From positions 186,001 through 250,000 of the forward strand of contig NZ_AUCG01000016.1 of assembly GCF_000429645.1 (NCBI RefSeq): a stretch of 64,000 nucleotides of DNA, given 5' to 3'. The notes below the pieces were generated by a model that worked only from the letters and a program-made list of their open reading frames with translations, did not search any database and was not told the DNA's origin. Positions 7,125-60,204 of this stretch are shown piece by piece. The position numbers and the translations under genes were made by a program. Source of the DNA: Niveispirillum irakense DSM 11586. GTDB taxonomy: Bacteria; Pseudomonadota; Alphaproteobacteria; Azospirillales; Azospirillaceae. Position 1 is the stretch's first letter. The number at the start of each line of letters is the position of its first letter.

Positions 7125-7156
7125 AAACCCCGCACCGGCGAACCGATGCGGGGTTT
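7125..7156 (-). terminator. Terminator of mdh
   Basis: AAACCCCGCA (7125-7134) pairs with TGCGGGGTTT (7147-7156), with a small inner CGG/CCG stem. A T-run follows on the minus strand. It lies 41 bases after the mdh stop. Confidence 0.88.
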
Positions 7157-7196
7157 GCTTATCCCAACCTTATACGGGTTGGAAAACCGTGGCTTA

Positions 7197-8189
<993 letters not shown>

Positions 8190-8364
8190 TCAGGAAACAT
8201 GCATCTGTGGGAGGCCGGCGCCGTTTTTCAGAAGTTGCACGGACCGTATTTCTCCCTGCGGCGCTGGCTTAGCCCGAAATGCGGGGCCGGGCAAGCCGAC
8301 AAGGGTCGAGGGTCGGGGGAAGCAGGCCAGCGCCTTTTGCATCCCAACCATGCGTCCCTCTTCC

Positions 8365-10200: not shown

Positions 10201-10304
10201 GGGCCGCGCCCCCTGGAACCGGTAACGATATTGCCGACACTACCGGCTAAAATGGGTAACGCTGATAACACCGCTACACGCCTCCCGCATACCCGCTTTC
10301 CTGC

Positions 10305-11003
10305 TCATTCCTTGTACTTATAGCCCACGCCATACAGGGTTTCGATCTGCTGGAAATCGTCATCCACAGCCTTGAACTTCTTGCGCAGGCGCTTGATGTG
10401 GCTGTCGATGGTGCGGTCATCGACATAGATATGCTCGCCATAGGCGGCATCCATCAACTGGTCCCGGTTCTTCACATGGCCGGGACGGATGGCCAGCGCC
10501 TTGACCAGCAGGAATTCCGTCACCGTCAGGTCAATCTCCTTGCCCTTCCAGGTGCAGAGATGGCGGGCGCCATCCAGCACCAGTTCGCCGCGCACCAGGG
10601 TCTGGCCCGGATCAGGTGTCGCCCCCTTGCCCTGGGCCAGTTCGGTCCGGCGCAGCAGGGTCTTGATGCGCTCAATCAGCAGGCGCTGGCTGAAGGGCTT
10701 CTTGATGTAATCATCCGCGCCCATGCGCAGACCCTGCAGCTCATCCGTCTCATCATCCTTGGAGGTCAGGAAGATGATGGGCATCTGGGTAGTCTGGCGC
10801 AGGCGCTGCAACAGTTCCAGCCCGTCCATGCGCGGCATCTTGATATCCAGCACCGCCATATCCACCGGGCGGGAAGTGATGCCGCGCAGGGCCTCGTCAC
10901 CGTCGCTATAGGTGCGGACCTCGTATCCTTCCGCCTCCAGCGCGATGGAGACCGAAGTCAGGATATTGCGGTCGTCATCGACCAGCGCGATTGTTTGGGC
11001 CAC
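10305..11003 (-). CDS. chvI: Response regulator ChvI (OmpR family)
   Basis: The 232-residue product has a receiver domain with the acidic pair in ALVDDDRN, the phospho-acceptor Asp in [11 protein letters not shown] and the conserved Lys in FLTSKDD. A C-terminal winged-helix DNA-binding domain with [17 protein letters not shown] follows. It is the partner of ChvG. I place the start at a GTG (11003): a GGAG lies nine bases upstream and the product then begins [11 protein letters not shown] as in relatives. An upstream TTG at 11018 is the alternative. Its regulon in relatives includes envelope, exopolysaccharide and acid-stress genes. Confidence 0.93.
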
Positions 11004-11187: not shown

Positions 11188-11946
11188 ATGGTGATAGACC
11201 AGGTGGAAGGGGCAGAGCCCCCTGTCGAAGATCCCGGCGCCACCGCGCGCACCCTGATGCGGGCCAGCATCCAGGCCACCCTGGCGACCAGCCAGCGGGA
11301 AACCGGTGCCGGCATTGGCGGCTGGCCCAGCCCATCGCTGGTGCTGGTCGGGTTCGATCTGGATGCCACGCCCCTGCTGTTGATATCACGCCTGGCGGAA
11401 CACACCTTGAACCTGGAGGCCGATCCCCGCTGCGGCCTGCTGTTCGATGGCACTGCCGGCCACCCTGACCGGCTGACCGGGCCACGCCTGTCCATCCAGG
11501 GCCGTGCGCGGCGGGATGATGACACGCGGCGCATCGGCCGGTTCCTGGCCCGCCACCCCTCCGCCGCCGCCTATATCGGATTCGCTGACTTCGGCCTGTG
11601 GCGGGTGGATGTGGAACGCGGCCATATGGTGGCGGGCTTCGGCCGCATCCGCGCCATGGGCGCCGACCAGCTTCACCTGCCCCCCGCCGACTGGCTGGAA
11701 CTGGCCCCAGCGGAAGAGGATATTGTCGCCCACATGAATGCCGACCATGCCGACGCGCTGGCACTGTACGCCACCCGCCTGCTGGACCTGCCGGCGGGTG
11801 ACTGGCGCATGACCGGGATCGACCCTGACGGGTGCGACCTGCGCGACGGCCCCCAGGCCGCCCGCCTGCCCTTTGCCACCAAGGTCCGCAACGCCGATCA
11901 GGCACGGGCGGAACTGGTACGGCTGGTGAAACGGGCGCGGCAGTAA
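11188..11946 (+). CDS. HugZ-family haem-binding / pyridoxamine-5'-phosphate-oxidase-like protein
   Basis: The product is about 252 residues. The N-terminal split-barrel domain (ARTLMRASIQATLAT, LLLISRLAEHTLNL, SIQGRARR) is of the pyridoxamine phosphate oxidase-like fold. The C-terminal DUF2470-type domain contains EEDIVAHMNADHADAL. This two-domain layout matches HugZ-like haem-degrading or haem-storing proteins; the second domain usually supplies the haem-contacting His. It is divergent from chvI and precedes pckA. The start at 11188 is preceded by AGGA; an in-frame ATG at 11131 is possible. Enzymatic activity is inferred from family only. Confidence 0.82.
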   Translation: MVIDQVEGAEPPVEDPGATARTLMRASIQATLATSQRETGAGIGGWPSPSLVLVGFDLDATPLLLISRLAEHTLNLEADPRCGLLFDGTAGHPDRLTGPRLSIQGRARRDDDTRRIGRFLARHPSAAAYIGFADFGLWRVDVERGHMVAGFGRIRAMGADQLHLPPADWLELAPAEEDIVAHMNADHADALALYATRLLDLPAGDWRMTGIDPDGCDLRDGPQAARLPFATKVRNADQARAELVRLVKRARQ

Positions 11947-12159
11947 GGGCAGCAGCCTGCCATTTGCCGCCAAGCCGGTACCGCCCAACACCCTTTCCAT
12001 TTGCTTCCCTCCCATGCGGGACTGGGGCAAAAGGCCCTATTGCAGCGCGCACGATAGAACGGTAAGGGTACAAAACTCGTTACATAACCCCGCCGGTAAC
12101 AGTCCCCAACGACAAAACAAGGGGCCCCCGGCGCCGGTTCACAAGGGGAGTGCGCGCGC

Positions 12160-13764
12160 GTGGAAACGACCGGTCCCGTCATCAGCGGTTTCGGCCTGGA
12201 CTATCTGGGTCTGGCCAATCTGAAGGCCGCCCATTGGAATCTGAGCGCCGGCGCGCTCTATGAGCAGGCGCTGCGCCGCAGCGAGGCGAAGCTGTCCAAG
12301 GATGGTGCGCTGGTCGCCATCACCGGCCAGCATACCGGCCGCTCCCCCAATGATAAGTTCACCGTGCGGGAGGAAACGACCGAAGCCGATATCTGGTGGG
12401 GGCCGAACAAGCCTTTCACCGAAGAGGCTTTCGACCGGCTGCATGCGCGGATGACGGCCTATCTCCAGGGTCGGGACGTGTTCGTGCAGGATCTGTGGGC
12501 CGGGGCCGATGCCGCCTATCGCCTGCCCGTGCGCATCGTGACCCAGCATGCCTGGCACAATCTGTTCGCCCAGAACATGTTCATCCGCCCATCGCTGGCC
12601 GACCGCGCCCAGTTTGAGCCGGGCTTCACGGTGCTGCAGGTCCCGGATTTCCGCGCCGTGCCGGAACGCGACGGCACCCGCTCGGACGTGTTCGTCGTCA
12701 TCAATTTCAAGAAGAAGCTGGTGCTGATCGGCGGCACCTCCTATGCCGGGGAGATCAAGAAGTCGATCTTCTCCGTGCTGAATTTCATGCTGCCGGCCCA
12801 GGGCGTGTTGCCCATGCATTGTTCGGCCAATATCGGGCCGGGCGGCGACACGGCGATCTTCTTCGGCCTGTCCGGCACCGGCAAGACCACGCTGTCAGCC
12901 GATGCCAGCCGCACCCTGATCGGCGATGACGAGCATGGCTGGTCGGATAATGGCGTCTTCAATTTCGAAGGCGGCTGCTATGCCAAGGTGATCCGCCTGT
13001 CGGCCGAGGCCGAGCCGGAGATTTACGAGACGACCCGCCGCTTCGGCACGGTGCTGGAAAATGTCGTGATGGACGAGGGCACCCGCGCGCTCGACCTGGA
13101 TGACGCGCGCCTGACGGAAAATACCCGCGCCTCCTACCCGATCGACTTCATCCCCAATGCCAGCGCCACCGGGCGCGGCGGCCAGCCGCTGAACATCATC
13201 ATGCTGACGGCGGATGCGTTCGGCGTGCTGCCGCCAATCGCGCAACTGACCGCCGATCAGGCCATGTACCATTTCCTGTCCGGGTACACCGCGCGCGTCG
13301 CCGGCACGGAAAAGGGCGTGACGGAGCCGCAGGCAACCTTCAGCACCTGCTTCGGCGCCCCCTTCATGCCGCGCCATCCCACCGTCTATGCCAAGCTGCT
13401 GGGCGAGAAGATCCAGGCCCATGGCGCCCGCTGCTGGCTGGTCAATACTGGCTGGACCGGTGGCGCCTATGGCACCGGCAGCCGCATGAAGATTGCCCAT
13501 ACCCGCGCGCTGGTGAATGCCGCCCTGTCGGGCGAGTTGGCCGGCGTGCGCCATATTCCGGAGCCGAATTTCGGGCTGGCCGTGCCGGAAGGCTGTGCCG
13601 GGGTGCCGGCGGATGTGCTGGTGCCGCGCAATAGCTGGTCCGACAAATCCGCCTTCGACGCCACCGCCCATGAGGTGGCCCGGCGTTTTGAGGCCAATTT
13701 CACCCAATTCCAGGATCAGGTGGACGAGAAGGTTGTGTGCGCCGGTATCCGTACCGCCGCGTAA
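12160..13764 (+). CDS. pckA: Phosphoenolpyruvate carboxykinase (ATP)
   Basis: The 534-residue product is full length. It carries [13 protein letters not shown] near residue 65, the oxaloacetate-site Arg region, and the kinase loop [13 protein letters not shown] near 236-248. Further on come the metal-binding LIGDDEHGW and the [10 protein letters not shown] motif. It converts oxaloacetate and ATP to phosphoenolpyruvate, CO2 and ADP, the entry to gluconeogenesis from TCA intermediates. The start is a GTG with AAGGGGAG ten bases upstream. In Rhizobiales pckA is next to chvI and ChvI-regulated; here a HugZ gene lies between them. Confidence 0.97.
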
Positions 13765-22584: not shown

Positions 22585-24189
22585 TCACGGGCCGATGGAT
22601 AGATAGCGGGACAGATGGATGTCGCGGATATTGTCCTGCCATCCCTGGACCTTATCCGCAACCATGTGGCTGCTGACATAGGTGTAGATCGGGATAACCG
22701 GGTGATCGGCCAGCAGCATGCTTTCCGCCTGTTGCATCAAAGCCCGCCTCTTCGCCGCATCGGGTTCACCCGCCGCGTCACGCACCAGCCGGTCATAATC
22801 GGGATTGGCATAGCCGGCATGGTTCTGCCCGCTGACATCGGACCGGAACAGCGACAGGAAGCTGTAGGCATCGTCATAATCGCCGATCCAGCCACCGCGC
22901 ACGATATCGTCAAACTTGCCGGCGGCACGGTCGGCCAGCAGCACTTTCCATTCCCGGTTCACCAGCCGGGCCCGGACCCCCAGCTTCACCCGCCACATGG
23001 ATTCCAGGGCGATGGCAACCTTGCGGTGGTTGTCGCTGGTGTTGAACAGGATTTCCACTTCCAGCGGCTTGCCCCCCGGCCCGTAACCGGCCTTGGCGAT
23101 CAGTTCCTGTGCCTTGGCATCACGCTGCGCCTGCGTCCAGGCGGCGTATTTTGGCTCCGGCGCGGTATAATCGCTGACGCCCGGCGGGGTGACCGTATAA
23201 GACGGGATCTCTCCGCCCCGGGTGATCTTCTCCGCGATGATGGCGCGATCCACCGCCAGGGACAGGGCGGCCCGCAGGTCTGGGTTGGATTTCCACGGCT
23301 CCCGCCGCAGGTTGATCACGTAATAATAACTGGACAGGAACGGGGCCAGACGCAGTTCGGATGGCATATTTTCCCGCAGCCAGGGGATCTGCGCATCCGG
23401 AATGTCATAGGTCACATCCAGCTCCCCAGCGCGAAACCGCTTCAGTTCGGTGTCCCGGTTTTCCGTGGAATGGAAATAGACGCTATCGAGTTTGACATCA
23501 TTGGCGGCATGGAAGTGCGGGTTGCGGACCAGCTTCACATGGCTTTGCGGCACCGCCGCCGCCAGCATGAAAGCCCCGTTGGAAACCAGCTTGCCGGGAC
23601 GGATGAAATCATTGCCATGCGCCTTCACATTGGCGTGGCTGAGCGGGAATGTGGACGGATGCTGCAGGGAGGCGAGGAAATAGCCGGTGGGCGCTTCCAA
23701 CTCCACCTCCAGCCGGTGCGGTGACAGGGCCCGTACGCCCAGGCTCTCCGCCGGCGCCTGCCCCTTGCTGATCTTCTCCCCGTTGCGCACGGGCCAGAGG
23801 AAAAAGGCATAACGGGACCCGGTGGACGGCGAGACCAGCCGGCGCCAGGCGAACACAAAATCATCCGCCGTCACCGGGGTTCCGTCCGACCATTTTGCCT
23901 CAGGCCGCAGATCGAAATGGTAGGTGCGGCCATCTGCCGAAAGGGTCCAGTGCTGCGCCACACCCGGCACCAGATGGCCGGCAGCATCCAGCGTCACCAA
24001 CCCTTCAAACAGATCATATTGAATCCAGGATTCAGCTTCGCCCGTGGATTTATGCGGGTCCAGGGTTTCCGGCTCCGCGCCATTGCCACGGTGAAGCACG
24101 GCGGACAAGGCCGGCATCGTCATGCACAGAACCAGAAGGATCGCGGCCAGAACCCGCCGGCCAAACACCGTCACACCAACCGCCGCCAC
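22585..24189 (-). CDS. OppA-type peptide-binding protein 1
   Basis: The product is about 534 residues with a signal peptide ending ALSA. The SBP family 5 core includes RGNGAEPETLDPHKS at the mature N-terminus, KWSDGTPVTADDFVFAW, LVRNPHFH, TELKRFRAGELDVTY and GGWIGDYDDAYSF. It should bind oligopeptides in the periplasm for an ABC importer. I place the start at a GTG (24189) because AAGGGGAGGG lies five bases upstream; a TTG further upstream lacks such a site. No permease or ATPase is adjacent. It belongs with copies 2-4 by the EWKV segment in the second lobe. Confidence 0.92.
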   Translation of the reverse strand: MAAVGVTVFGRRVLAAILLVLCMTMPALSAVLHRGNGAEPETLDPHKSTGEAESWIQYDLFEGLVTLDAAGHLVPGVAQHWTLSADGRTYHFDLRPEAKWSDGTPVTADDFVFAWRRLVSPSTGSRYAFFLWPVRNGEKISKGQAPAESLGVRALSPHRLEVELEAPTGYFLASLQHPSTFPLSHANVKAHGNDFIRPGKLVSNGAFMLAAAVPQSHVKLVRNPHFHAANDVKLDSVYFHSTENRDTELKRFRAGELDVTYDIPDAQIPWLRENMPSELRLAPFLSSYYYVINLRREPWKSNPDLRAALSLAVDRAIIAEKITRGGEIPSYTVTPPGVSDYTAPEPKYAAWTQAQRDAKAQELIAKAGYGPGGKPLEVEILFNTSDNHRKVAIALESMWRVKLGVRARLVNREWKVLLADRAAGKFDDIVRGGWIGDYDDAYSFLSLFRSDVSGQNHAGYANPDYDRLVRDAAGEPDAAKRRALMQQAESMLLADHPVIPIYTYVSSHMVADKVQGWQDNIRDIHLSRYLSIGP

Positions 24190-24280
24190 CCCGGCCCTCC
24201 CCTTGATCGGCAAAGAGCTATCACAGCATCAAAGCGCGGACAGGGGCAAGGTTCCTGACCGGCATAGGCCGGTAGCCACC

Positions 24281-29810: not shown

Positions 29811-31424
29811 TTACGGCTTGATGTCCAGGAACCGGCTGGGGTGGCTGTCCAGCAGGTTATCCGTCCAACCGATCAGCTTCGGGCTGACCATGTGCTTGGA
29901 GCTGTAGAAATGCAGCGGGAACACAGCCACATCATCCACCATGATCTTCTCCGCCTGCTGGAGCAGTTGGATACGTTCCTCCTCCGTCGTGGCCTTGTTG
30001 GCGGCTTCCATCAGCTTGTCGAAGGCGGGGTTGGAATAGCCGGACGGGTTCTGCTTGCCGATATCGCCGCGGGCCAGTTCCAGGAAATTGTTGGCATCGA
30101 CATAATCGCCGATCCAGCCGTGGCGGACCACGTCCTTGAAGTTCTTCTCATCGCGGGTGCCCAGGAAGACCTTCCATTCCTGGTTATTCAGCGTGACCTT
30201 CACCCCCAGCTTCTGCTGCCACATGGAAGCGACGGCAATCGCCAGCTTCCGGTGGTTTTCATGGGTGTTGTAGAGGATTTCGATATTGAGCGGCTTGGCC
30301 CCCGGCCCGTAGCCAGCCGCCTGGATCAGTTCCTTGGCCTTGGCTTCACGCTGGGCCTGGGTCCATTTGGCGTAATCGGGCACCTGCTGGGTATAGCCGG
30401 CCACGCCCGGCGGCACGAAGCTGTAGGCCGGCAATTCGCCGCGCTGGTTGATCTTCTCCACCAGGATATCGCGGTCAATCGCCAGGTTCAGCGCCAGCCG
30501 CAGATCCTTGTTGGACTTCCACGGCTCCTTCGTCATGTTCGCGGCGAAGAAGTAGGTGCCGAAATAGGGCGCCAGACGCAACTCGCTGGCCAGATTGGCC
30601 CGCAGCCACTGCATCTGCGTTACCGGCACCTCGTAGGTGATATGCAGCTCACCGGACCGGTAGCGCTTCAGTTCCGCGTCCAGGTTCTCGGTCGGATAGA
30701 ACATGACCGTGTCGATCTTGGTGTTGGCCACATCATAATGATGCGGGTTCTTCACCAGCTTGATCCGGCTCTGCGGCACCGCTTCGGCCAGCATATAGGC
30801 GCCGTTGGTCACCAGATTGCCCGCGCGCAGGAACTGATCGCCAAACTTCTCCACATTCGCCTTGGAAACGGCGTAGGTGGCATGATGGTGCAGCATGGAC
30901 AGGAAATAGGGGGTGGGCTGTTCCAGCGTCACTTCGAACGTATAGTCGTCCACGGCGCGGACGCCCATCTGATCAACCGGCATCTTGCCCAGATTGATGG
31001 CCTGGGCATTCTTCACCGGCCACAGGAAATAGCCGTAATTGGCCGCCGTCTTGGGATCGACCAGACGCCGCCAGGAGAAGACCCAATCCGCCGCCGTCAC
31101 CGGGGTGCCGTCCGACCATTTGGCATTGCGGCGCAGATGGAAGGTATAGACCAGCTTATCCGCGCTGACATCCCAGCGTTCCGCCGCACCGGGGATCAAC
31201 TCCCCCTTGCCGTCAGGCACCAGCAACCCGTCGAACAGATCATATTGCAGCCAGCTTTCCGGCACACCGCTGGACTTGGCGGGGTCCAGCGTCTCCGGCT
31301 CCGCTCCATTGCCGCGATGCAGGACTTTCTCGGCCGCCGCTGGCAAAGCGGCAAGGCCCATGCCCGCCGTGGCCAAAAGCACTGCGGCCGTAAAACGGCG
31401 CAAGGGTCGCATAAAGGATGCCAT
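29811..31424 (-). CDS. OppA-type peptide-binding protein 2
   Basis: The product of about 537 residues has a signal peptide ending LPAAAE. Its mature N-terminus RGNGAEPETLDPAKSSG is almost the same as in copy 1, so these two are the closest pair among copies 1-4. Other shared blocks are KWSDGTPVTAADWVFSW, TENLDAELKRYRSGELHITY and HGWIGDYVDANNF. AGGAGAGA six bases before the ATG at 31424 fixes the start over an upstream in-frame ATG. It has its own terminator partner downstream and no adjacent transporter genes. Confidence 0.92.
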   Translation of the reverse strand: MASFMRPLRRFTAAVLLATAGMGLAALPAAAEKVLHRGNGAEPETLDPAKSSGVPESWLQYDLFDGLLVPDGKGELIPGAAERWDVSADKLVYTFHLRRNAKWSDGTPVTAADWVFSWRRLVDPKTAANYGYFLWPVKNAQAINLGKMPVDQMGVRAVDDYTFEVTLEQPTPYFLSMLHHHATYAVSKANVEKFGDQFLRAGNLVTNGAYMLAEAVPQSRIKLVKNPHHYDVANTKIDTVMFYPTENLDAELKRYRSGELHITYEVPVTQMQWLRANLASELRLAPYFGTYFFAANMTKEPWKSNKDLRLALNLAIDRDILVEKINQRGELPAYSFVPPGVAGYTQQVPDYAKWTQAQREAKAKELIQAAGYGPGAKPLNIEILYNTHENHRKLAIAVASMWQQKLGVKVTLNNQEWKVFLGTRDEKNFKDVVRHGWIGDYVDANNFLELARGDIGKQNPSGYSNPAFDKLMEAANKATTEEERIQLLQQAEKIMVDDVAVFPLHFYSSKHMVSPKLIGWTDNLLDSHPSRFLDIKP

Positions 31425-31541
31425 CCGTACTCTCTCCTGTTCATTCATGGATGCTGCCGGTCGCCGGGCCTGTTACCGGCCCTTGGAGCGAGAGGGAAAA
31501 CCGCGCGGTGGTGGCGCCGCCCGGCACTCTAAGCAAACAAA

Positions 31542-31578: not shown

Positions 31579-33180
31579 TTACTTCGCGCCCACTTCCAGA
31601 TAGCGGGATAATTGCACGCCCATCGGGTTGGCGACCCAGCCCTTCACGCGCGGATGAACCAGATTGCGGTAGGACTGGTGGAAAATCGGGATGATGGGCG
31701 CATCTTCCAGCAGGACCGCTTCGGCCTGGGCCAGCAGCTTCATGCGCGCCGCCGGATCGGTCTGCTCGTTCGCCTGCTTCAGCAGGTTGTCATACTTGGC
31801 GCTGTCATAGCCGGCCCGGTTCATCTTGCCGACATCGGACAGGAACAGCTTCAGGAAGGTGTAGGGATCGGGGAAGTCCGCGATCCAGCCCAGCATGACG
31901 GTGTTGGCGTAGCTCTTCTCACCGGCATTCTGGAGGACGATTTTCCATTCCTGGTTATTCAGGCTGACCTTGGCGCCCAGCTTGGACTGCCACATCGAAG
32001 CAACAGCCACCGCGATCTTGCGGGTGCTCTCGTTGGTATTGTGCAGGACTTCCACGGTCAGCGGCTTGCCGCCCTTGCCATAGCCCGCCTCTTCGACCAG
32101 CTTCTTGGCGGCGGCATCGCGCTCGGCCTGGCTGGCCTTGTCCAGTGCGGTCAGGGGCAGGTCATAGCCTTCAATGCCCGGTGCCGTCAGGGTGAAGGCG
32201 GGCGCGTCGCCGGCCTTGGTAATCTTGTCGACGATGATCTGCCGGTCCACCGCCAGCGACAGGGCCTGCCGCAGCTTGGGATTGGAGGCCAGCGGCTCCT
32301 TCGTCATGTTGATGCCCAGATACTGGGTCGACAGGACGGGATAGAACTGGATCGTCTCCGGCATGTTCTGGCGCAGCCAGTCGATCTGGGTGACGGGTGC
32401 CATCTGCACCACATCCAGTTCCCCGGCGCGGAAGCGACGCAGCTCCGTTTCCGGGCTGTCATTATGGTGGAAGACGACGCTGTCCACCTTCACCGATGCC
32501 GCCTCGCGGAAATGCGGGTTCTTCACCACCTTCACATAGGCCTGGGGCCGGTAATCCACCAGCTTATAGGCGCCGTTGGACACCATGTTGCCCGGCTTCA
32601 CGAAATCATTGCCGAACTTCTCTACATTGGCCTTGGAGACCGGATAGGTCATGCGATGGACAAGGGAGCTGAGGAAATAGCCGGTCGGCCGTTCCAGCGT
32701 CACCTTGAAGGTGCGGGCATCCACCGCTTCCGCGCCCAGGGCCGAGGACGGCATCTTGCCATTGCTGATCGCCTCACCATTCTTCACCGGCCACAGGAAA
32801 TAGGCGTAATCGGACGCGGTCTTGGGATCGACCAGTCGCTGCCAGGCAAAGACGAAATCCGCCGCCGTGACCGGCGTGCCGTCCGACCATTTACCATCGG
32901 CGCGCAGGGTGAAGGTGTAGGTCAGCCCATCCTCGCTGACGGTCCATTTCTCCGCCGCACCCGGTATGGCCTTGCCATCGGGGGCGAAGGTCAGCAGCCC
33001 TTCAAACAGGTCATAACCGATGCGGGCTGACTGAACGTCCGTGCCCTTCTGCGGGTCCATGGATGTCGGCTCGGCCTGATTGCCGCGGTTCAACACCATG
33101 TCGGCAAAGGCGGTGCCGGCTGAAAAGCCGGTGGCCAGCGTCAGCGCGACAAAGGCCGTCGCAAGGCGGGCAAAACGCAT
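31579..33180 (-). CDS. OppA-type peptide-binding protein 3
   Basis: The product of about 533 residues starts MRFARLATAFVALTLATG with a signal peptide cleaved near AFAD. The core has RGNQAEPTSMDPQKGTD, KWSDGTPVTAADFVFAW, DSPETELRRFRAGELDVV and LGWIADFPDPYTF. It is the most divergent of copies 1-4. GGAGAAGAAG precedes the start. It is in tandem with copies 2 and 4 on the same strand, but spacing and terminators indicate separate transcripts. A different peptide preference is likely but cannot be read from the sequence. Confidence 0.92.
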   Translation of the reverse strand: MRFARLATAFVALTLATGFSAGTAFADMVLNRGNQAEPTSMDPQKGTDVQSARIGYDLFEGLLTFAPDGKAIPGAAEKWTVSEDGLTYTFTLRADGKWSDGTPVTAADFVFAWQRLVDPKTASDYAYFLWPVKNGEAISNGKMPSSALGAEAVDARTFKVTLERPTGYFLSSLVHRMTYPVSKANVEKFGNDFVKPGNMVSNGAYKLVDYRPQAYVKVVKNPHFREAASVKVDSVVFHHNDSPETELRRFRAGELDVVQMAPVTQIDWLRQNMPETIQFYPVLSTQYLGINMTKEPLASNPKLRQALSLAVDRQIIVDKITKAGDAPAFTLTAPGIEGYDLPLTALDKASQAERDAAAKKLVEEAGYGKGGKPLTVEVLHNTNESTRKIAVAVASMWQSKLGAKVSLNNQEWKIVLQNAGEKSYANTVMLGWIADFPDPYTFLKLFLSDVGKMNRAGYDSAKYDNLLKQANEQTDPAARMKLLAQAEAVLLEDAPIIPIFHQSYRNLVHPRVKGWVANPMGVQLSRYLEVGAK

Positions 33181-33322
33181 TCTTCTTCTCCACGCTTTCC
33201 TGTACCCACCCGTGTCCGACGGGGAAGGCATCGGGCTGTATGTGCGGTCTGATAGCCCCCAAGTCCAGGCCATTCGGCCAGATTTGGCACAAAAACGTGG
33301 CTTTTTCCGGCTCTGCCAAATG

Positions 33323-34909
33323 TCATGGCGCCAGGGACAGGAAGCGGGTCGGGTTGCAATCCACGGGGTTGGGCTGCCAGCCGATCACCTTGGGCGACAC
33401 CAGCCGGGTGCGGGCAAAGAAATAGAGCGGGATCACCGGGCTGTCCGCCACCAGCAGGCTTTCCGCCTGATGCAGGATCTCCCGCCTTTTTGCCGGGTCC
33501 GTCTCCTGCGCAGAAGCCGCCATCAACCGGTCGAAGGCGGGGTTGCTGTACCCGGCCGGGTTCTCCGGCCCCATCTCCGTGCGCAGAAATTCCAGAAAAG
33601 CGTTGGGATCATCATAGGCACCAATCAGGCCCGCCCGGACGATGCCGGGGAAATTCTTGGTCCGACGGTTGGAGAGATAAACCTTCCATTCCTGATTGGT
33701 CAGGGTGGCGCGCACGCCCAGCGACTGCTGGAACATGCTGGCCAGGGCCACGGCGATACGGCGGTGGTTTTCCGCCGTGTTGAACAGGATATCCACCTCC
33801 AGCCCCTGGCCGCCGGGATATCCGGCCTCGGCCAGCAGGGCGCGGGCGGCTTCCACCCGCTTTTCCATCGGCCAGCCGGCCCATTCCGGTTCCGGCGCCA
33901 CATAATCGGACACCACCGCTGGCACATAGGCCGCACTGGCCACTTCCCCGCCCTGGGCAATCCGCTCGGTCAGGATATGGCGGTCAACGACCATGGACAG
34001 GGCACGGCGCAGGGCCGGCTTTGATTTCCACGGCTCCCGCGTCAGGTTGATGGCCATGAAGTAATTGCCCAGCAAGGGCGTGTAGCGGAAGGCATCGGGC
34101 AGATTGGTCCGCGCCCAGCCGATCTGCGCCGTGGGCACCACGGCGGTGGTGTCCAGTTCCCCGGCGCGGAACCGCTTCAGTTCCGTCTCCTGGTTCTCCG
34201 TGGGATAGAAATAGACGCTATCAATGGCGATGCGGGCGGCATCGCGGTGATGGGGATTGCGCTCCAGCTTCACATGCCCCTGGGGCACCGCCTCCACCAG
34301 CCGGTACCCACCGGAGGAGATGAGATTGCCGGGACGGAAAAAATCCCGTCCCAGCGCCGTCACCTTGGCTTCCGGCAGGATCACCAGCATCGGATAGGCC
34401 AGCAGCGACACGAAATAGGGGGTCGGCTCTTCCAGCGTGAAGCGGACGGTGCGCGCATCCAGCGCCTCCACCCCCATCTGGGTCAGGTCCGTGATTGTCC
34501 CCTGGGTGATGGCGCGGGCATTCTTGATGGCCCAGACATAATTGCCGTTGCGGCTGCCCGATGCCGGATCGGCCAGCCGCCGGAAGGAAAAGACGACATC
34601 GCCCGCCGTGATCGGGCTGCCATCGGACCATTTCACCCCATCGCGCAGATGGAACGTGACCTGAAGACCATCCTTGCTGGTTTCCCACCGGTCCGCGATA
34701 GCGGCCTGCGGCTTGCCATCCGGCCCGCGCGACAACAGCCCTTCATAAAGATCGTAGAAGATCATTGCTTCCGGCAGGCCGGTCGCCTGATGCGGGTCCA
34801 GCGTCTCCGGCTCTGCCACATTACCACGCCGAAGCACGGTTTCCGCCTGGGCAAAACCGGTCAAGGTCAGCAGGCAGAGCAACAGGGCGGCGAGCAGGCG
34901 CATCGGCAT
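33323..34909 (-). CDS. OppA-type peptide-binding protein 4
   Basis: The 528-residue product has a short signal peptide (MPMRLLAALLLCLLTLTGFAQA). The core has RGNVAEPETLDPHQATG, KWSDGSPITAGDVVFSF, NQETELKRFRAGELDTTA and AGLIGAYDDPNAF. The otherwise conserved WIGDY of the second lobe reads LIGAY here, a change near the hinge that may alter ligand binding. It is the third of three tandem binding-protein genes; the NCS2 permease gene lies immediately upstream. A second ATG at 34903 is possible. Confidence 0.92.
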   Translation of the reverse strand: MPMRLLAALLLCLLTLTGFAQAETVLRRGNVAEPETLDPHQATGLPEAMIFYDLYEGLLSRGPDGKPQAAIADRWETSKDGLQVTFHLRDGVKWSDGSPITAGDVVFSFRRLADPASGSRNGNYVWAIKNARAITQGTITDLTQMGVEALDARTVRFTLEEPTPYFVSLLAYPMLVILPEAKVTALGRDFFRPGNLISSGGYRLVEAVPQGHVKLERNPHHRDAARIAIDSVYFYPTENQETELKRFRAGELDTTAVVPTAQIGWARTNLPDAFRYTPLLGNYFMAINLTREPWKSKPALRRALSMVVDRHILTERIAQGGEVASAAYVPAVVSDYVAPEPEWAGWPMEKRVEAARALLAEAGYPGGQGLEVDILFNTAENHRRIAVALASMFQQSLGVRATLTNQEWKVYLSNRRTKNFPGIVRAGLIGAYDDPNAFLEFLRTEMGPENPAGYSNPAFDRLMAASAQETDPAKRREILHQAESLLVADSPVIPLYFFARTRLVSPKVIGWQPNPVDCNPTRFLSLAP

Positions 34910-34993: not shown

Positions 34994-36808
34994 TCAATGA
35001 TAAAAGACCATCCGCAGACTGGCTGTTTCCCCCGATTGGCTGCTGCGGATCTGGTCGGAAAGATGCCGCAGCAGGCGTGCGGAAACTTGCCGCATCATCG
35101 CCTCCATCTCATCCTCCGCCATATCCAGGGCTGCCTGCGCGTCGGGGGCGACAGCTGGCATCTCCAGGCGCAGGGCGCGTCCGCGATAGGAGAGGATGCA
35201 GACAAGGTTGAACTCGTCAAAGCTGGCCTGGAGGGTGAAAGCACCTTCCGTCCCGCTCTCACGCAGGCTCTCCGTCGCTTCTCCCACGGCCGTGGCGGCG
35301 CGCAGCACCACATCACGGCGCGCTCCCCATTGTTTGCCCCAATGGTCCAAGAAATGCGCCGCTTCCGCTGCCTCTCCGGTGAGGGGCAGTTCGATCCCGG
35401 CGGCGCGAGCCGTCCCGATACGGAACAGGCCGTTCAACAACACCGCCATGACGGATCCGACGATGAAGCCGGACCCGATGATCACCTGGCTCCATTGCGG
35501 GGCGGCCTGCACGAGTTGTGGCAGCAACATCACAGCCGTACCGGCCACAACGGACAAGCCGACCGTCAGGCTGCGCTTCGGGTTCATCATCCGCGACATG
35601 ATCAGTTCCATGCCGGCGACGATGATATAGGCCGCCGTATAGACCAGGATGCCGCCGATGACGGCGGTGGGCGTCTGCGCCAGCAGGCCCGCCACCGGCG
35701 GCACGAAGGCGGCCATGATCATCACCAGCCCAGCCACGATGCCGACGCGACGCGCCGTGATACCGCTGGCATGGGCCAACCCGATATTGGCCGAGGAGGT
35801 GCCCCCTGACAGGGTTCCCGTCAGGCCATGCAGCAAATGGGTCAATCCCAGGCACGTGATGGCGCGGGCCACCAGCCCCATATCCGCCCGCCGCCAGTCG
35901 GCATCATCCATCTTGTCCACTGACAGGGCACAGGCAAACTGATCCATCACCGTCAGAAGGGCGGAGATCATGAAAATGGCGATTGGGGCGGGGTGGAATT
36001 CAGGCACCGGCAGATGCAGCCCCAGAACAGGCACTGCCAGCAGCGGCATTTCCGCTACTGGCGCCAGCGCAGAGCCATCAAGCTGGCCGGTGATGATGGC
36101 GACGATAATCCCCCCGGCAGCCCCCACCGCCATGGCAACCCGCTTCAGCCCCGGCGTGCCCCAGACCGCAATGGCAACCATGCAGGCCAGGGTGGTGCCA
36201 GCCACCGCCATGGCGGCAAGGGAAAAACCACCGCCAGTCTGGATGCCGAAGCTGCGGGACACGCCACCGGTCACCAGCGTCACGCCGAGCAGCAGAAGCA
36301 CGACGCCGATCACCTCTGGTGGAAAAATGGCGCGCAAGCGCGGGATGAACCGGGCCGTGACCACCATCATCAGCGAGCCGACCAGCATGGCCCCCATGGT
36401 GGCCGCCAGCCCATATTGCAGTGTCACCGCGACATGGAGCGCCACCTTGGCCGGTCCGGGAATGCCGATCAGCAGCACCCCCGCCCCGAAACGCGTTACC
36501 ATCCCCTGAAGCACGGTGCCCAATCCCAGGATCAGGATGGTAGCACTGGTGAAGGTGGCCACGGCTGCCGGTTCCATGCCCATGGATTGGGCGGCCAGCA
36601 CCGCATAGAGGGAAAACATCAACGCCAGCAGCGCATGTTGTATCCCCATTGCAATCAGGGTGGTGCGGGGCGGCATCTCCTCCACCGCCACCAGCAGTTC
36701 CTCCGGCCGTTGCCGCCGTCGCGCCACCGGTGGCGGAAACAGGAAATCCAGCAACCGCCGGCCGGATACCGCGATGTGCGGTCCCGCCCCCCCTTTGAAG
36801 GCCCCCAT
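34994..36808 (-). CDS. NCS2-family (xanthine/uracil-type) permease with extra C-terminal domain
   Basis: The 604-residue product has a cytoplasmic head and about 12-14 membrane helices between residues 50 and 465. NCS2 features include GTVLQGMVTRFGAGVLLIG, SVDKMDDADWRRADMG and a GGTSSANIGLAHASG loop in the region of the substrate site. About 135 residues follow the last helix, well beyond the usual NCS2 length. They contain a helix with VVLRAATAVGEATESLR and a strand-rich part that resemble a GHKL/HATPase-like fold, though key ATP-site residues look degenerate. It would import a nucleobase with protons. The substrate is unknown. Confidence 0.85.
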   Translation of the reverse strand: MGAFKGGAGPHIAVSGRRLLDFLFPPPVARRRQRPEELLVAVEEMPPRTTLIAMGIQHALLALMFSLYAVLAAQSMGMEPAAVATFTSATILILGLGTVLQGMVTRFGAGVLLIGIPGPAKVALHVAVTLQYGLAATMGAMLVGSLMMVVTARFIPRLRAIFPPEVIGVVLLLLGVTLVTGGVSRSFGIQTGGGFSLAAMAVAGTTLACMVAIAVWGTPGLKRVAMAVGAAGGIIVAIITGQLDGSALAPVAEMPLLAVPVLGLHLPVPEFHPAPIAIFMISALLTVMDQFACALSVDKMDDADWRRADMGLVARAITCLGLTHLLHGLTGTLSGGTSSANIGLAHASGITARRVGIVAGLVMIMAAFVPPVAGLLAQTPTAVIGGILVYTAAYIIVAGMELIMSRMMNPKRSLTVGLSVVAGTAVMLLPQLVQAAPQWSQVIIGSGFIVGSVMAVLLNGLFRIGTARAAGIELPLTGEAAEAAHFLDHWGKQWGARRDVVLRAATAVGEATESLRESGTEGAFTLQASFDEFNLVCILSYRGRALRLEMPAVAPDAQAALDMAEDEMEAMMRQVSARLLRHLSDQIRSSQSGETASLRMVFYH

Positions 36809-38839: not shown

Positions 38840-40432
38840 TTACGGCGTCACTTCCAGGAACTGGGACAGGTTGAAATCGGTCGGGTTCGGCGCCCAGCCT
38901 TTCAGCTTGGGGCTGACCAGACGGCGGCGGGTATTGTGGTGCAGCGGGATGATGCTGTCGCTTTCCAGCGCCACTGTTTCCGCCTTTCCCAGCAGTTCCA
39001 CCCGCTTGGCCGGATCGGTCTGGCGGTTTGCCTCATCCAGCAACTGGTCGAATTCGGCACTCTTGAAGCCGGACAGGTTCTGCTGTTCCACGTCGGAACG
39101 GAAAAGCTGAAGGAAGGAATTGGCGTCGGGATAGTCCCCGATCCAGCCGTAATATATCACATCCTGATAGGCCTTCTCGTTGCCGATGCTGGCGACAACG
39201 CGGAATTCCTGATTGTTCAGCCGCGTCTGCACCCCCAGCTTCTGCTTCCACATCGCAGCCACGGCGACATTCACCTTGCGGGCATTGTCGCTGGTGTAAT
39301 GCAGCACCTCGATCTCCGGCAGGGGCTTTCCGCCCGGCCCATAGCCAGCCTCGGCCAGCAGCTTCTTCGCCATGGCGTCGCGTTCGGCCTGGGTCTGTTT
39401 CGTCCAGGGCAGGCGCGGCGGCTCGTATCCGCCGACATTGCCGGGGGGCGTGAAGCTCCAGGCCGGCAATTCACCGCCGCCCACCACCTTCTCGGCAATC
39501 ACCTCCCGATCGATCACCAGCGACAGGGCGGCGCGCAGCTTGGGGCTGGATTTCCACGGCTCATGCGTCAGGTTGAACGCCATGTAATAGGTGGAATAGG
39601 TGGAACCAGCGCTGAAGGATTCCTTCAGATTCTCCTGCGCCCATTTGATCTGGCTGTTGGGCAGGGTGTTGGTGCTGTGCAATTCCCCGGCGCGGAACTT
39701 CTTGAATTCCGTTTCCTGATTGTCGATCGGGTAGGAGAAGACGGTGTCGATCTTCACCTTGGCCGCATCATGGTAATAGGGGTTCTTGACCTCCTTGATA
39801 TGGCTCTGCGGCACATTCTCAACCAGCATATAGGCACCGTTGCTGACCAGATGACCGGGGGCGGTGAAGCCCTCCCCATATTTTTCCAGGCTGGCCCGGT
39901 GCAGCGGGAACATCGCCACATGCTGGAGGGAGGCCAGGAAATAGCCGGTCGGCTGGGTCAGCGTCACCTTCAGCGTATGGTCGTTAACAGCCTCAACGCC
40001 CAGCGTCTCCGGTGCCTTCTTGCCTGCGGTGATGTCCCGCCCATTCACGATGGGCCAGACGAAATAGGCATAGGGCGACGCGGTTTTCGGGTTGGCCAGC
40101 CGGTGCCAGGCATAGACGAAATCCGCCGCCGTCACCGCACTGCCATCGGACCATTTGGCATCAGGCCGCAGCGTGAAGGTGTAGACAGTGCCATCAGGGC
40201 TGACCTCATAGCTGGCAGCCACGCCATTGCGGCGCTGGCCCTTGGCATCCAGGGAAAACAGCCCTTCGAACAGGTCATAAATGATGAAGGCCGCCGGCTG
40301 CAGCTCCGACTTGGTTGGGTCCAGCGTGTCAGGGGCCGCGCCGGTGCCCCGATGATAAACCATCTCGGCGGCAGCGGGCTGGGCAAACAGGATGCCGGCA
40401 AGGCCGACAGCGGCAAGAAGCGTGCGTTTCAT
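38840..40432 (-). CDS. OppA-type peptide-binding protein 5
   Basis: The 530-residue product starts MKRTLLAAVGLAGILFAQ with a signal peptide cleaved after AAA. The mature start RGTGAAPDTLDPTKSE, the second-lobe block NNQEFRVVASIGNEKAYQD and YYGWIGDYPDANSF define a subgroup shared only with copy 6. Lys- and Arg-rich TRRRLVSPKLKGW near the C-terminus differs from copies 1-3. It is convergent with the CoA-transferase gene and has no adjacent transporter. It and copy 6 are best explained as a tandem duplication. Confidence 0.92.
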   Translation of the reverse strand: MKRTLLAAVGLAGILFAQPAAAEMVYHRGTGAAPDTLDPTKSELQPAAFIIYDLFEGLFSLDAKGQRRNGVAASYEVSPDGTVYTFTLRPDAKWSDGSAVTAADFVYAWHRLANPKTASPYAYFVWPIVNGRDITAGKKAPETLGVEAVNDHTLKVTLTQPTGYFLASLQHVAMFPLHRASLEKYGEGFTAPGHLVSNGAYMLVENVPQSHIKEVKNPYYHDAAKVKIDTVFSYPIDNQETEFKKFRAGELHSTNTLPNSQIKWAQENLKESFSAGSTYSTYYMAFNLTHEPWKSSPKLRAALSLVIDREVIAEKVVGGGELPAWSFTPPGNVGGYEPPRLPWTKQTQAERDAMAKKLLAEAGYGPGGKPLPEIEVLHYTSDNARKVNVAVAAMWKQKLGVQTRLNNQEFRVVASIGNEKAYQDVIYYGWIGDYPDANSFLQLFRSDVEQQNLSGFKSAEFDQLLDEANRQTDPAKRVELLGKAETVALESDSIIPLHHNTRRRLVSPKLKGWAPNPTDFNLSQFLEVTP

Positions 40433-40531: not shown

Positions 40532-42118
40532 TTACCCCACATCCAGCCAGCGCGTCGGGTTCTGGTCCAGCGGTGTGGGCTGCCAGCCTTTCACCTTAGG
40601 CGACACCAGCCGGCGCCGGTTATTGTGCAGGATGGTGCAGATGGGGAAATCCGCCTGATACATCCGCTCCGCCTCGGCCAGCAGGGCCATGCGGGTGGCG
40701 GTGTCCAGGCTGGCATTGGCCTCGTCCAGCTTGCGGTCAAAATCCGGGTTGCTATAGGCGGACAGGTTCTGCTGCGCCACGTCGGAGCGCAGAAGCTTCA
40801 GGAAATTGATCGGGTCGGGGAAATCCCCGATCCAGCCGTAATAGATGATGTCCTGATAGGCCTTGCGGTTGCCGATGCTGGCAACGACGCGGAATTCCTG
40901 ATTGTTCAACTGCGTCTGCACGCCCAGCACCTGCCGCCACATGGCAGCCACGGCCACCATCACGCGCTTGCTGTTCTCATTGGTGGAATGCAGCACCTCG
41001 AAGGTTGGCAGCGGTTTGCCGCCCGGCCCATAGCCAGCCTCGGCCAGCAGCTTCTTGGCCTGTTCATTGCGCTGGGCCTGGGTCAACCCGCGCCAATCCG
41101 GCTGCGGCGGCTCATACCCGCCCACCTTGCCGCTGGGGGTAAAGCTGTAGGCCGGCTTGATATCGCCGCCCATCACCTTCTCGGCAATCACCTCCCGGTC
41201 GATGGCCAACGTCAGCGCCGCCCGCAGCTTGGCATTGGATTTCCATGGTTCTTTGGTCAGGTTGAAGGCCATGTAGAAGGTGGAATATGTCGGCGTCGGC
41301 GTATAGGCCTGCTTGCCTTCCGTGCGGGCCCAGTTCACCTGCGTGATCGGCAGGTTATAGGTGACATCCACCTCCCCGGCGCGGAAGCGTTTCAGCTCCG
41401 TATCCACATTCTCCGTCACCAGATGGTAGACGGTATCCACCTTCACCTTGTCGGCATCATAATAATGCGGGTTGCGGACCAGCCGGTAATGGGTCTGCGG
41501 CACCATCTGCGCCAGTTGATAGGCGCCATTGCTGACGGGTTTTGCCTCGTCCCCACCCTTCTTCACCGGTGACATGGACTGATGCGAGAGCTGGCCCAGG
41601 AAATAGGCCGCCGGCTCCTTCAACACCACTTTCAGCGTGCGCTCATCCAGGGCGGTGACGCCCAGCGTCTCCACCGGCTTTGTCCCAGCCGACACATCCG
41701 CCCCATTTTCGATCACCCAGGTGAAATAGCCATAGGGCGAGGCGGTCTTGGGATCGGCCAGCCGGCGCCAGGCATAAACGAAATCCCCCGCCGTTACCGG
41801 GCTGCCATCGGACCATTTGCCATTGGCCCGCAAGTGGAAGGTATAGGTCTTGCCATCAGCGGAAATGTCCCATTTCTCCGCCGCGCCCGGCCGGGGCATG
41901 CCATCAGCCCCCGGCGTCAGCAGCCCTTCATACAGATCATAAATCACGATGGAGGCGGGGTGCAGTTCGGCCTTGCCCGGATCAACCGTATCGGGCGCAG
42001 AGCCCAGGCCCCGGCGCAGCACCTTGCCATCCTGCGCGAAAACGGGGGGCACCAGGCCCGCCATCGCGAGCGTCAGCGCGGTGGAGATCATGAAGGAACG
42101 GCGATGGATATGCTGCAT
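40532..42118 (-). CDS. OppA-type peptide-binding protein 6
   Basis: The product of about 528 residues begins MQHIHRRSFMISTALTLA, a signal peptide with paired Arg, cleaved near VFAQ. The block NNQEFRVVASIGNRKAYQDIIYYG and the end RRRLVSPKVKGW match copy 5 closely. The mature start reads RGLGSAPDTVDPGKAE. The start at 42118 is preferred over an upstream in-frame ATG because of the signal-peptide shape. It lies directly upstream of copy 5 on the same strand with a 99-base gap, which could be one transcript or two. Confidence 0.92.
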   Translation of the reverse strand: MQHIHRRSFMISTALTLAMAGLVPPVFAQDGKVLRRGLGSAPDTVDPGKAELHPASIVIYDLYEGLLTPGADGMPRPGAAEKWDISADGKTYTFHLRANGKWSDGSPVTAGDFVYAWRRLADPKTASPYGYFTWVIENGADVSAGTKPVETLGVTALDERTLKVVLKEPAAYFLGQLSHQSMSPVKKGGDEAKPVSNGAYQLAQMVPQTHYRLVRNPHYYDADKVKVDTVYHLVTENVDTELKRFRAGEVDVTYNLPITQVNWARTEGKQAYTPTPTYSTFYMAFNLTKEPWKSNAKLRAALTLAIDREVIAEKVMGGDIKPAYSFTPSGKVGGYEPPQPDWRGLTQAQRNEQAKKLLAEAGYGPGGKPLPTFEVLHSTNENSKRVMVAVAAMWRQVLGVQTQLNNQEFRVVASIGNRKAYQDIIYYGWIGDFPDPINFLKLLRSDVAQQNLSAYSNPDFDRKLDEANASLDTATRMALLAEAERMYQADFPICTILHNNRRRLVSPKVKGWQPTPLDQNPTRWLDVG

Positions 42119-58151: not shown

Positions 58152-59201
58152 ATGACCGCAGTATTGGAAGTCCGCGACCTGAAGGTTCGCTTCGCCACGC
58201 CGGATGGCGAGGTCTCCGCCGTCAATGGCGTGTCCTTCGACGTGAATGAGGGCGAGTGCGTCGGCATTGTCGGTGAAAGCGGATCGGGCAAGAGCCAGCT
58301 TTTCATGTCCGTCATGGGCCTTCTGGCCAAGAATGGCCGCACGCTGGGGTCCGCCAAGTACCGGGGGACCGAACTGGTCGGCATGCCGGTGAAGGCGTTG
58401 AACAAGATCCGTGGCGACAAGATCGCCATGATCTTCCAGGACAGCATGACCGGCCTGACCCCGCATCTGCGCATCGGCAAGCAGATGACCGAGGTGCTGG
58501 TCCAGCACAAGGGCATGAGCGAGGCCGATGCCCGCAAGCGCGCCCTGGAAATGCTGAACCTGGTGCGCATCCCGGAAGCCGGCCGCCGCCTGGCCCAGTA
58601 TCCGCATGAATTGTCCGGCGGCATGCGCCAGCGCATCATGATCGCCATGGCGCTGCTGTGCGAGCCGGAACTGCTGATCGCGGACGAGCCGACGACGGCG
58701 CTGGACGTGACAGTACAGGCCCAGATCCTGGACCTGATGGCCGACCTGAAAACCGTCACCAAGGCCGCCATCGTGCTGATCACCCATGATCTGGGCACGG
58801 TTGCCGGCCTGTGCGACAAGGTGCAGGTCATGTATGGCGGCCGGTTCATGGAAACCGGTACGGTGCAGGAAATTTTCTACAAGCCGGCCCATCCCTATAC
58901 GGCCGGCCTGCTGGCCTCCATGCCGCGCCTGACGGAAGAACGGCAGGAAAAGCTCTACGCCATCCCCGGCCAGCCGCCGAACCTGCAGCGCCTGCCCAAG
59001 GCCTGCCCGTTCCAGGAACGCTGCACCTATGTGCATGACCGCTGCATCGACGAACTGCCAGTGCTGCGCCAAGTGGGCGATGCCAACGCCACCCTGACCG
59101 GCCATACCAAGGCCTGCCATCTGGTCAGCCTTCAGAATCCCGTCAGCGCCCCCCACGCCCCGTCCATCAATGTGGCCGCCGACGAAGCCCGGAGCGCCTG
59201 A
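58152..59201 (+). CDS. oppD: Oligopeptide ABC transporter ATPase OppD
   Basis: The 349-residue product has Walker A GESGSGKSQ, the signature LSGGMRQRI and Walker B LLIADEPTTALDV. The C-terminal oligo_HPY extension carries a Cys cluster (ACPFQERCTYVHDRC and a later Cys in TKACHL), typical of OppD proteins that bind a metal or Fe-S centre. With OppF it powers peptide import. Its stop is followed after one base by the oppF start. Confidence 0.95.
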   Translation: MTAVLEVRDLKVRFATPDGEVSAVNGVSFDVNEGECVGIVGESGSGKSQLFMSVMGLLAKNGRTLGSAKYRGTELVGMPVKALNKIRGDKIAMIFQDSMTGLTPHLRIGKQMTEVLVQHKGMSEADARKRALEMLNLVRIPEAGRRLAQYPHELSGGMRQRIMIAMALLCEPELLIADEPTTALDVTVQAQILDLMADLKTVTKAAIVLITHDLGTVAGLCDKVQVMYGGRFMETGTVQEIFYKPAHPYTAGLLASMPRLTEERQEKLYAIPGQPPNLQRLPKACPFQERCTYVHDRCIDELPVLRQVGDANATLTGHTKACHLVSLQNPVSAPHAPSINVAADEARSA

Positions 59202-59202
59202 T

Positions 59203-60204
<1,002 letters not shown>

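Follow-up and report, generated by a model that had tools for sequence, protein, structure and literature searches.

What an NCS2-type permease gains from a second fold at its C-terminus is the question raised by an open reading frame (ORF) on the minus strand of Niveispirillum irakense DSM 11586, at positions 34994 to 36808 of a 64,000-nucleotide stretch of contig NZ_AUCG01000016.1 (contig positions 186,001 to 250,000), the whole of which is referred to below as the window. The original prediction, made from the letters of the stretch, took the frame for an NCS2 permease with an attached domain of the anti-sigma-type GHKL class. Structural models and profile comparisons place the tail in the SpoIIAB/RsbW class of anti-sigma kinases. 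On balance, the evidence favors a carrier of the NCS2/NAT fold whose pseudokinase tail serves as the docking site for a STAS protein and so links the carrier to a partner switch. The main parts of the protein are the following.

34994..36808, minus strand: whole ORF, NCS2/NAT-fold permease with a predicted C-terminal SpoIIAB/RsbW-like domain (604 aa, ATG start, uninterrupted)
35414..36691, minus strand: transporter domain, residues about 40-465 (PF00860 match, full-length AlphaFold2 model)
34997..35413, minus strand: predicted C-terminal SpoIIAB/RsbW-like domain, residues about 466-604 (AlphaFold2, Foldseek, VIA-align, hhalign)

An NCS2-Fold Permease With a SpoIIAB/RsbW-Like Tail

The transporter half was matched by PF00860 (Xan_ur_permease) in Pfam over residues 51-431 (E 3.8e-34, 118.5 bits against a cut-off of 27). 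Among the NCBIfam models the ORF passes NF037981 (43.4 against a cut-off of 40) and misses the cut-offs of TIGR00801 (114.7 against 291.8) and TIGR03173 (184 against 414); the two best NCS2 models end on it at residues 462 and 459, leaving about 139 residues beyond them. The full-length AlphaFold2 model, obtained with 23 sequences, reached a predicted local distance difference test (pLDDT) score of 85.2, and the solved folds closest to it are SVCT1, UapA and UraA, with SLC26Dg at rank 14. The permease assignment and a transporter end near residue 465 with some 135 residues to follow, both originally predicted, agree with these results.

The tail was modeled separately (residues 455-604, AlphaFold2, alignment of 23 sequences), giving a mean pLDDT of 89.7 and a predicted template modeling score (pTM) of 0.81. 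The elements of the model run in the order first helix, strand, two helices, two strands, short helix, helix and two strands. When it was compared with the PDB using Foldseek, rows 1-19 were RsbW, UsfX and SpoIIAB structures plus SiaB at rank 19 (best E 2.3e-6, identity 10-19%), and several of the top SpoIIAB, RsbW and UsfX matches belong to entries whose titles name a complex with the STAS partner. VIA-align gave Z scores of 14.7 for UsfX, 14.0 for SpoIIAB, 14.0 for RsbW and 13.3 for the RsbW domain of Rv1364c; further out lie Leptospira LvrC (11.4), SiaB (11.1) and the best histidine kinase, DesK (8.8).

Homology was assessed by aligning profiles with hhalign. An alignment of 56 tails matched an alignment of 10 RsbW-type HATPase_c_2 kinases, taken from the neighborhoods of tailed permeases, at 95.7% (E 1e-8, score 54.1, 128 columns). 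Against this score, 100 column-shuffles reached 16.1 at most, while the STAS and SpoIIE alignments scored 14.9 and 16.4; the tail against the STAS alignment gave 0.7%. A smaller comparison of 23 tails with 7 kinases was weak (21.8%, P 0.001). Searches with single sequences stayed below threshold: Pfam on the tail alone returned DUF2884 (E 0.019), HATPase_c_2 (0.096) and PBAN (0.1), none above its cut-off, HATPase_c_2 lying at E 0.096-0.13 and scoring about 13 bits where the cut-off is 27.4. Over 23 tails Pfam found HATPase_c_2 in 1 and every family in at most 2, and PDB sequence searches, run with the tail by itself and with a profile, returned nothing credible.

The domain occupies the same place in 56 tailed permeases, the window's included (counted after dropping L102, L103 and L106, which lie on the same contigs as L049, L032 and L036); since it recurs there and is confidently predicted, it is not a chance feature. 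By fold comparison and by profile comparison with controls, the tail thus belongs to the SpoIIAB/RsbW class, well above general GHKL folds and histidine kinases, as the anti-sigma-type assignment had proposed.

Residues of the ATP Site

Residues 500-516, VVLRAATAVGEATESLR, were aligned by hhalign to the N-box helix of RsbW-type kinases, the position first suggested for this segment from its rhythm. Both hhalign alignments place E510 on the N-box Glu, S514 on the N-box Asn and Y541-R-G543 on the DxG motif.

35267..35281, minus strand: N-box equivalent, E510 to S514, Glu kept and Asn lost (hhalign alignments)
35180..35188, minus strand: DxG (G1) equivalent, Y541-R-G543, Asp lost and Gly kept (hhalign alignments)

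The N-box Glu is a candidate general base. At position 510 it is present in 45 of the 56 tails (Gln in 10, Leu in 1). Asn, noted as replaced in the window protein, occurs in none of them at position 514. Position 541 likewise never holds Asp (Tyr 30, His 16, Trp 8, Phe 2), position 543 is Gly in 54, and Gly reaches at most 17 in any column across residues 546-580, a stretch that spans the lid. In the neighboring kinases the N-box Glu and Asn are kept in 10/10, as is the GG.G motif. The DxG motif is intact in just 6/10, with Asp replaced by Tyr in L035 and L041 and Gly missing from L037 and L047; what speaks for a dead site is therefore the loss of the Asn and of the glycines rather than that of the Asp. 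L035 and L041 are both Kaistia loci, and their presumed true kinases carry Tyr at the DxG Asp, as do 30 of the 56 tails. Judged from these residue losses, the tail probably has a dead active site and would no longer bind ATP.

Partner-Switch Genes Beside Tailed Permeases

Profiles for STAS, kinase and SpoIIE proteins were built from linked genes and run over all fetched flanks. A STAS gene was present in 10 of the 20 named loci (a set that includes the window) and in 2 of 31 further regions (34 minus 3 duplicates), L116 and L119; additional STAS-linked loci are L147, from the phylum scan, and L144, the second locus of genome G471. The 14 STAS-linked loci with flanks (L033, L035, L037-L039, L041, L042, L045-L047, L116, L119, L144 and L147) comprise a kinase in 12 cases and a SpoIIE gene in 12. 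STAS, HATPase_c_2 kinase and SpoIIE occur together in L033, L035, L037-L039, L041, L042, L046, L047, L116 and L147; the flanks of L045 contain no kinase and those of L119 neither kinase nor SpoIIE. In the loci scanned, Pfam confirmed the STAS and HATPase_c_2 proteins and SpoIIE proteins bearing HAMP or Cache domains.

Gene order differs among these loci, which are spread over separate clades of the permease tree. In L035, L039, L041 and L046 the STAS gene diverges from the permease and has SpoIIE and kinase on its far side; in L037, L042 (a Comamonas locus) and L047 the divergent STAS gene is followed by permease, kinase and a second tailed permease, so that each of these three loci holds two tailed permeases, of different clades, with the kinase gene between them. 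In L033 and L038 the permease faces SpoIIE and a kinase-STAS pair follows 5-6 kb on. Both L116 (SpoIIE-kinase-STAS-permease) and L147 (permease-STAS-kinase) run in one direction. A further conserved gene follows the permease in L035, L039, L041 and L046, the L039 copy (11714-12547) being a methyltransferase according to Pfam.

Linkage was compared between tailed and tail-less NCS2 genes of the same 18 genomes, two partial NCS2 matches (G465:C129 and G474:C212) having been dropped from the count. A STAS gene lies within 7 kb of 17/24 tailed and 0/21 tail-less genes (Fisher 3e-7), the former fraction being no measure of prevalence, since 12 of the 18 genomes were picked for linkage already seen; within 1.5 kb the counts are 11/24 and 0/21 (Fisher 3e-4). 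In the linked STAS proteins S55 is invariant (11 of 11 aligned). The nearest sigma-70 region-2 gene to a permease in 13 linked genomes is 10.0 kb away (G465) and the next 13.6 kb (G469); in the remainder it is farther off or absent on the permease's contig, several of these contigs ending within a few kb.

The sensor parts of the switch loci also include SBP_bac_3 proteins. At L035:4284-7042 and L039:4781-7050, beside the switch genes, these proteins carry or precede hydrophobic stretches that resemble subunits of amino-acid ABC permeases, in which Pfam finds no permease domain; one such stretch is in frame with a HATPase_c_2 kinase (L035:5891-7042). These are possibly importer parts reused as a sensor.

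Distribution and Phylogeny

The architecture recurs across Alphaproteobacteria and Burkholderiales. In a profile scan, a tail match was found in 14 of 82 genomes of the order; the 15 of 385 sampled genomes of the class and the 5 of 398 of the phylum are lower bounds because scoring was limited to the top 9-10 candidates of each genome. Of the five in the phylum, three had already been found (the window's own among them) and one is a kinase in genome G734. Named carriers include Pseudoroseomonas, Azospirillum, Ancylobacter, Kaistia, Oryzicola and Corticibacterium, together with Bordetella, Diaphorobacter, Comamonas, Simplicispira and Giesbergeria.

No stand-alone tail domain was detected in these scans, all matches lying in open frames of at least 375 aa (18 matches among 82 genomes of the order, at least 22 among 385 of the class and at least 7 among 398 of the phylum). 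The 375-aa match of G734 (E 2e-5) is a kinase, not a permease, and adjoins SpoIIE and two STAS genes; in G469 a 62-aa fragment matches the tail profile at E 3e-4. A tree of 65 rows, with a midpoint root, a small outgroup and long branches, separates 59 tailed permeases from 6 tail-less NCS2 proteins (100/100). Locus L120 of genome G239 has a convergent pair of tailed permeases, one on the plus strand (7129-8874) and one on the minus strand (8935-10644), with their tail ends facing each other.

The Substrate Site of the Transporter Domain

According to PMC5972032, canonical NAT proteins are defined by three motifs, Gln-His in transmembrane helix 1 (TM1), Glu in TM8 and Gln/Glu/Pro in TM10; the TM8 Glu and the TM10 Gln/Glu are described there as the main nucleobase contacts, and ascorbate carriers as having Ser-Ser-Ser-Pro-Asn-x-Gly. 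The corresponding positions in the window protein are these.

36635..36640, minus strand: TM1 Gln-His motif, Q57-H58, kept (sequence; definition in PMC5972032)
35942..35944, minus strand: TM8 substrate-binding Glu position, here D289, in D289-Q-F-A-C (alignment of 56 tailed and 20 tail-less proteins)
35762..35800, minus strand: TM10 signature region, residues 337-349, TSSANIGLAHASG, with A340 at the Gln/Glu/Pro position (same alignment)

From A340 onward TM10 reads A340-N-I-G-LAHA-S-G. None of the 56 tailed permeases has Glu at the TM8 position (Asp 27, Arg 15, Asn 7, Thr 4, Ser 2, Lys 1), nor Gln or Glu at the TM10 position (Ala 25, Gly 17, Ser 11, Thr 2, Pro 1). In the tail-less NCS2 proteins from the window's family, by comparison, TM8 Glu and TM10 Gln are each present in 20/20, these controls being mostly close relatives of one another and representing few independent lineages. 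The TM10 segment of the window protein, Thr-Ser-Ser-Ala-Asn-Ile-Gly, is closer to the ascorbate form than to the nucleobase form of the motif as both are given in PMC5972032, although the second position of the motif is Tyr or Phe in 10 of the 56 tailed relatives.

With the TM8 Glu and the TM10 Gln/Glu both changed, the tailed permeases could, on sequence grounds, plausibly take a non-nucleobase substrate or act as receptors. The subfamily passes the NCS2 'purine/pyrimidine permease' model NF037981, yet both main substrate residues are changed in 56/56, which makes that annotation doubtful.

Switch Genes in the Genome of the Window

The genome to which the window belongs contains switch genes that are unlinked to the permease. 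Contig C1 holds a switch with STAS, HAMP, HATPase_c_2 and SpoIIE proteins, and contig C3 a second one; contig C6 has a STAS gene, and neither a kinase nor a phosphatase of this type is found within the 13 kb there. Scored with the linked STAS profile, the C1 and C6 proteins reach 113.7 and 105.6 bits and the C3 protein 40.8. The partner of the window permease would be such an unlinked STAS protein, the candidates including those encoded at L142:5776-6102 and L141:6407-6736.

Across the order, the linked-type STAS family at E 1e-20 is present in 14/14 genomes with the tail and in 24/68 without it (Fisher 4e-6; within-genus permutation 4/20000).

A protein of 1069 aa lies within the switch cluster on C1 (L142:5776-14549). 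Its TLC/MFS, HEAT and cNMP-binding matches are weak, and it may be another transporter-like protein connected with a switch; no counterpart was detected next to the STAS genes of 16 related regions.

Proposed Mechanism and Alternatives

The presence of switch genes next to the tailed permease in many relatives suggests that the transporter is wired into a signaling circuit. Unphosphorylated STAS proteins bind SpoIIAB-like domains, as is established for SpoIIAA and SpoIIAB. On this basis we tentatively propose, as a scheme less probable than the coupling itself, that the dead tail is captured by unphosphorylated STAS and that phosphorylation of the STAS serine switches uptake quickly, without a change in transcription. 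The HATPase_c_2 kinase would phosphorylate the STAS protein at its conserved serine, a step that the SpoIIE phosphatase would undo under the control of its HAMP or Cache sensor parts. The unphosphorylated STAS protein would then be shared between the kinase and the transporter tail, which, unable to phosphorylate its ligand, could act as its sink or receiver. The tail presumably lies on the cytoplasmic side; fixed to the carrier, it might pass STAS binding to transport, or the state of the carrier to the free STAS pool. Gating of transport by STAS binding is slightly more likely than the release or capture of STAS by transporter movement, because the switch loci have sensor parts of their own and no sigma factor lies close; STAS binding by the tail and any effect on transport are what we infer from the evidence above.

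Several observations weigh against a carrier coupled to a partner switch. The linked-STAS profile finds no STAS gene at the window nor in 29 of the 31 non-duplicate further regions, and in the 19.8 kb around the window permease neither the linked-type profiles nor Pfam detect a STAS, kinase or phosphatase gene. The selection of genomes already noted for the linkage test counts here as well. At E 1e-12 the co-occurrence is weaker (14/14 against 42/68, p 0.004, within-genus permutation 896/20000), the threshold was not fixed in advance, and the STAS family is also found in genomes that have no tailed permease. Lastly, the absence of the DxG Asp argues only weakly for a dead site, as Tyr stands there in 2 of the 10 neighboring kinases too.

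The best of the competing explanations, possible though doubtful, makes the permease a transceptor, which senses its ligand with or without transporting it while the tail captures or releases STAS and the output of the switch lies elsewhere. A receptor might show changes such as those of the TM8 Glu and the TM10 Gln, which affect each of the 56 tailed proteins, and the switch of the window's genome, being unlinked to the permease, may serve other outputs. The switch loci, however, already possess sensors in the HAMP or Cache parts of SpoIIE and in the SBP_bac_3 proteins, and the 13 linked genomes, several with contigs ending within a few kb, show no sigma factor close by.

Less probable still, and unlikely overall, is a structural or dimerization module of RsbW-gene origin that no longer has a STAS partner. 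The regions without a linked STAS gene, many of them from the window's own family, fit such a module, and SLC26 STAS tails are said, in PMC8256260, to be needed for stabilization and function. It sits poorly with a linkage that appears in separate lineages and in different gene orders, against 0/21 tail-less controls, and with a STAS family that co-occurs in genomes without linkage.

That the tail is an active STAS kinase using ATP in an altered way seems very improbable. Its fold is complete, the N-box Glu is kept in 45 tails, and the Asp-to-Tyr change of DxG also occurs in two presumed true kinases next door; against this stand the N-box Asn, absent from all 56 tails, the scarcity of lid glycines (at most 17/56 at any column), and the separate kinase gene of 12/14 linked loci, the neighboring kinases having kept both E..N and GG.G in 10/10. 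A disordered or unrelated extension, for which the sub-threshold Pfam scores and the empty PDB sequence search speak, was rejected as having next to no likelihood: structure prediction of the tail, originally suggested as a check, gave a pLDDT of 89.7 and Z scores near 14 to SpoIIAB/RsbW, and the domain is conserved in 56 proteins with homology at the profile level.

Genes Around the Permease in the Window

The gene downstream of the permease and its paralogues are listed for context.

33323..34909, minus strand: SBP_bac_5 solute-binding protein, next gene downstream, 84 bp gap (Pfam; context only)
22585-24213, 29811-31448, 31579-33273, 33323-34909, 38840-40432 and about 40535-42079, minus strand: oligopeptide-binding-type paralogues

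These six paralogous proteins around the permease are 42-58% identical, and three of the six were confirmed as SBP_bac_5. Two Opp-type ATPase genes lie at a distance from the permease (58152-60201). A substrate guess from the operon context of the SBP_bac_5 gene was dropped because no counterpart stands beside the permease of the close relative L031; L112 ends at this point and is uninformative.

Comparison With Known Systems

With other NCS2/NAT permeases (UraA, UapA, XanQ, SVCT) the window protein has in common the PF00860 match, the TM1 Gln-His motif and the nearest solved folds; it differs in the lost TM8 Glu and TM10 Gln and in the extra 139-residue domain. This domain resembles the anti-sigma kinases SpoIIAB, RsbW and UsfX (PF13581, HATPase_c_2) over nearly the whole fold, with a collinear profile match and the N-box Glu and DxG Gly mostly kept. 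Unlike them, it is fused to a transporter, has lost the N-box Asn, the DxG Asp and the lid glycines, scores below the Pfam cut-off and, in the 13 linked genomes, has no sigma factor close by.

SiaABCD is a partner-switch module without a known sigma target. Others are SypA/SypE, BtrUVW and RbaV, the targets of SypA and RbaV being given as unknown in PMC8256260. All these modules combine a STAS protein, a HATPase_c_2 kinase and a SpoIIE-type phosphatase, as do the linked loci named above, though not the locus in the window; in the linked loci a transporter with a kinase-like tail is added as an extra member. Such a transporter is a concrete candidate for a non-transcriptional target of switches that lack a known one, and the proposed coupling, if true, would represent a partner-switching system with a membrane transporter as its output. 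In the literature searched, which consisted of open-licence PMC papers judged in part by title and partial abstract, no report was found of an NCS2-fold carrier with a SpoIIAB-like pseudokinase in a partner-switch locus. The parts are of known kinds; the combination of carrier, pseudokinase and switch locus would be the new element.

The nearest parallel is provided by the SLC26 carriers with a STAS tail (PMC8256260). SLC26/SulP proteins have a related carrier fold and, as an extra domain, one half of a SpoIIAA-SpoIIAB-type pair; in the tailed NCS2 proteins it is the kinase-like half that is fused, the STAS protein is separate, and the tail itself is not STAS. If the proposed reading is true, the tailed permeases would mirror SLC26-STAS, the kinase half being joined to a carrier of the same fold superfamily. 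This bears on the reason for the STAS domain of SLC26 carriers, as opposite halves of one switch may have been taken up by two related families of carriers.

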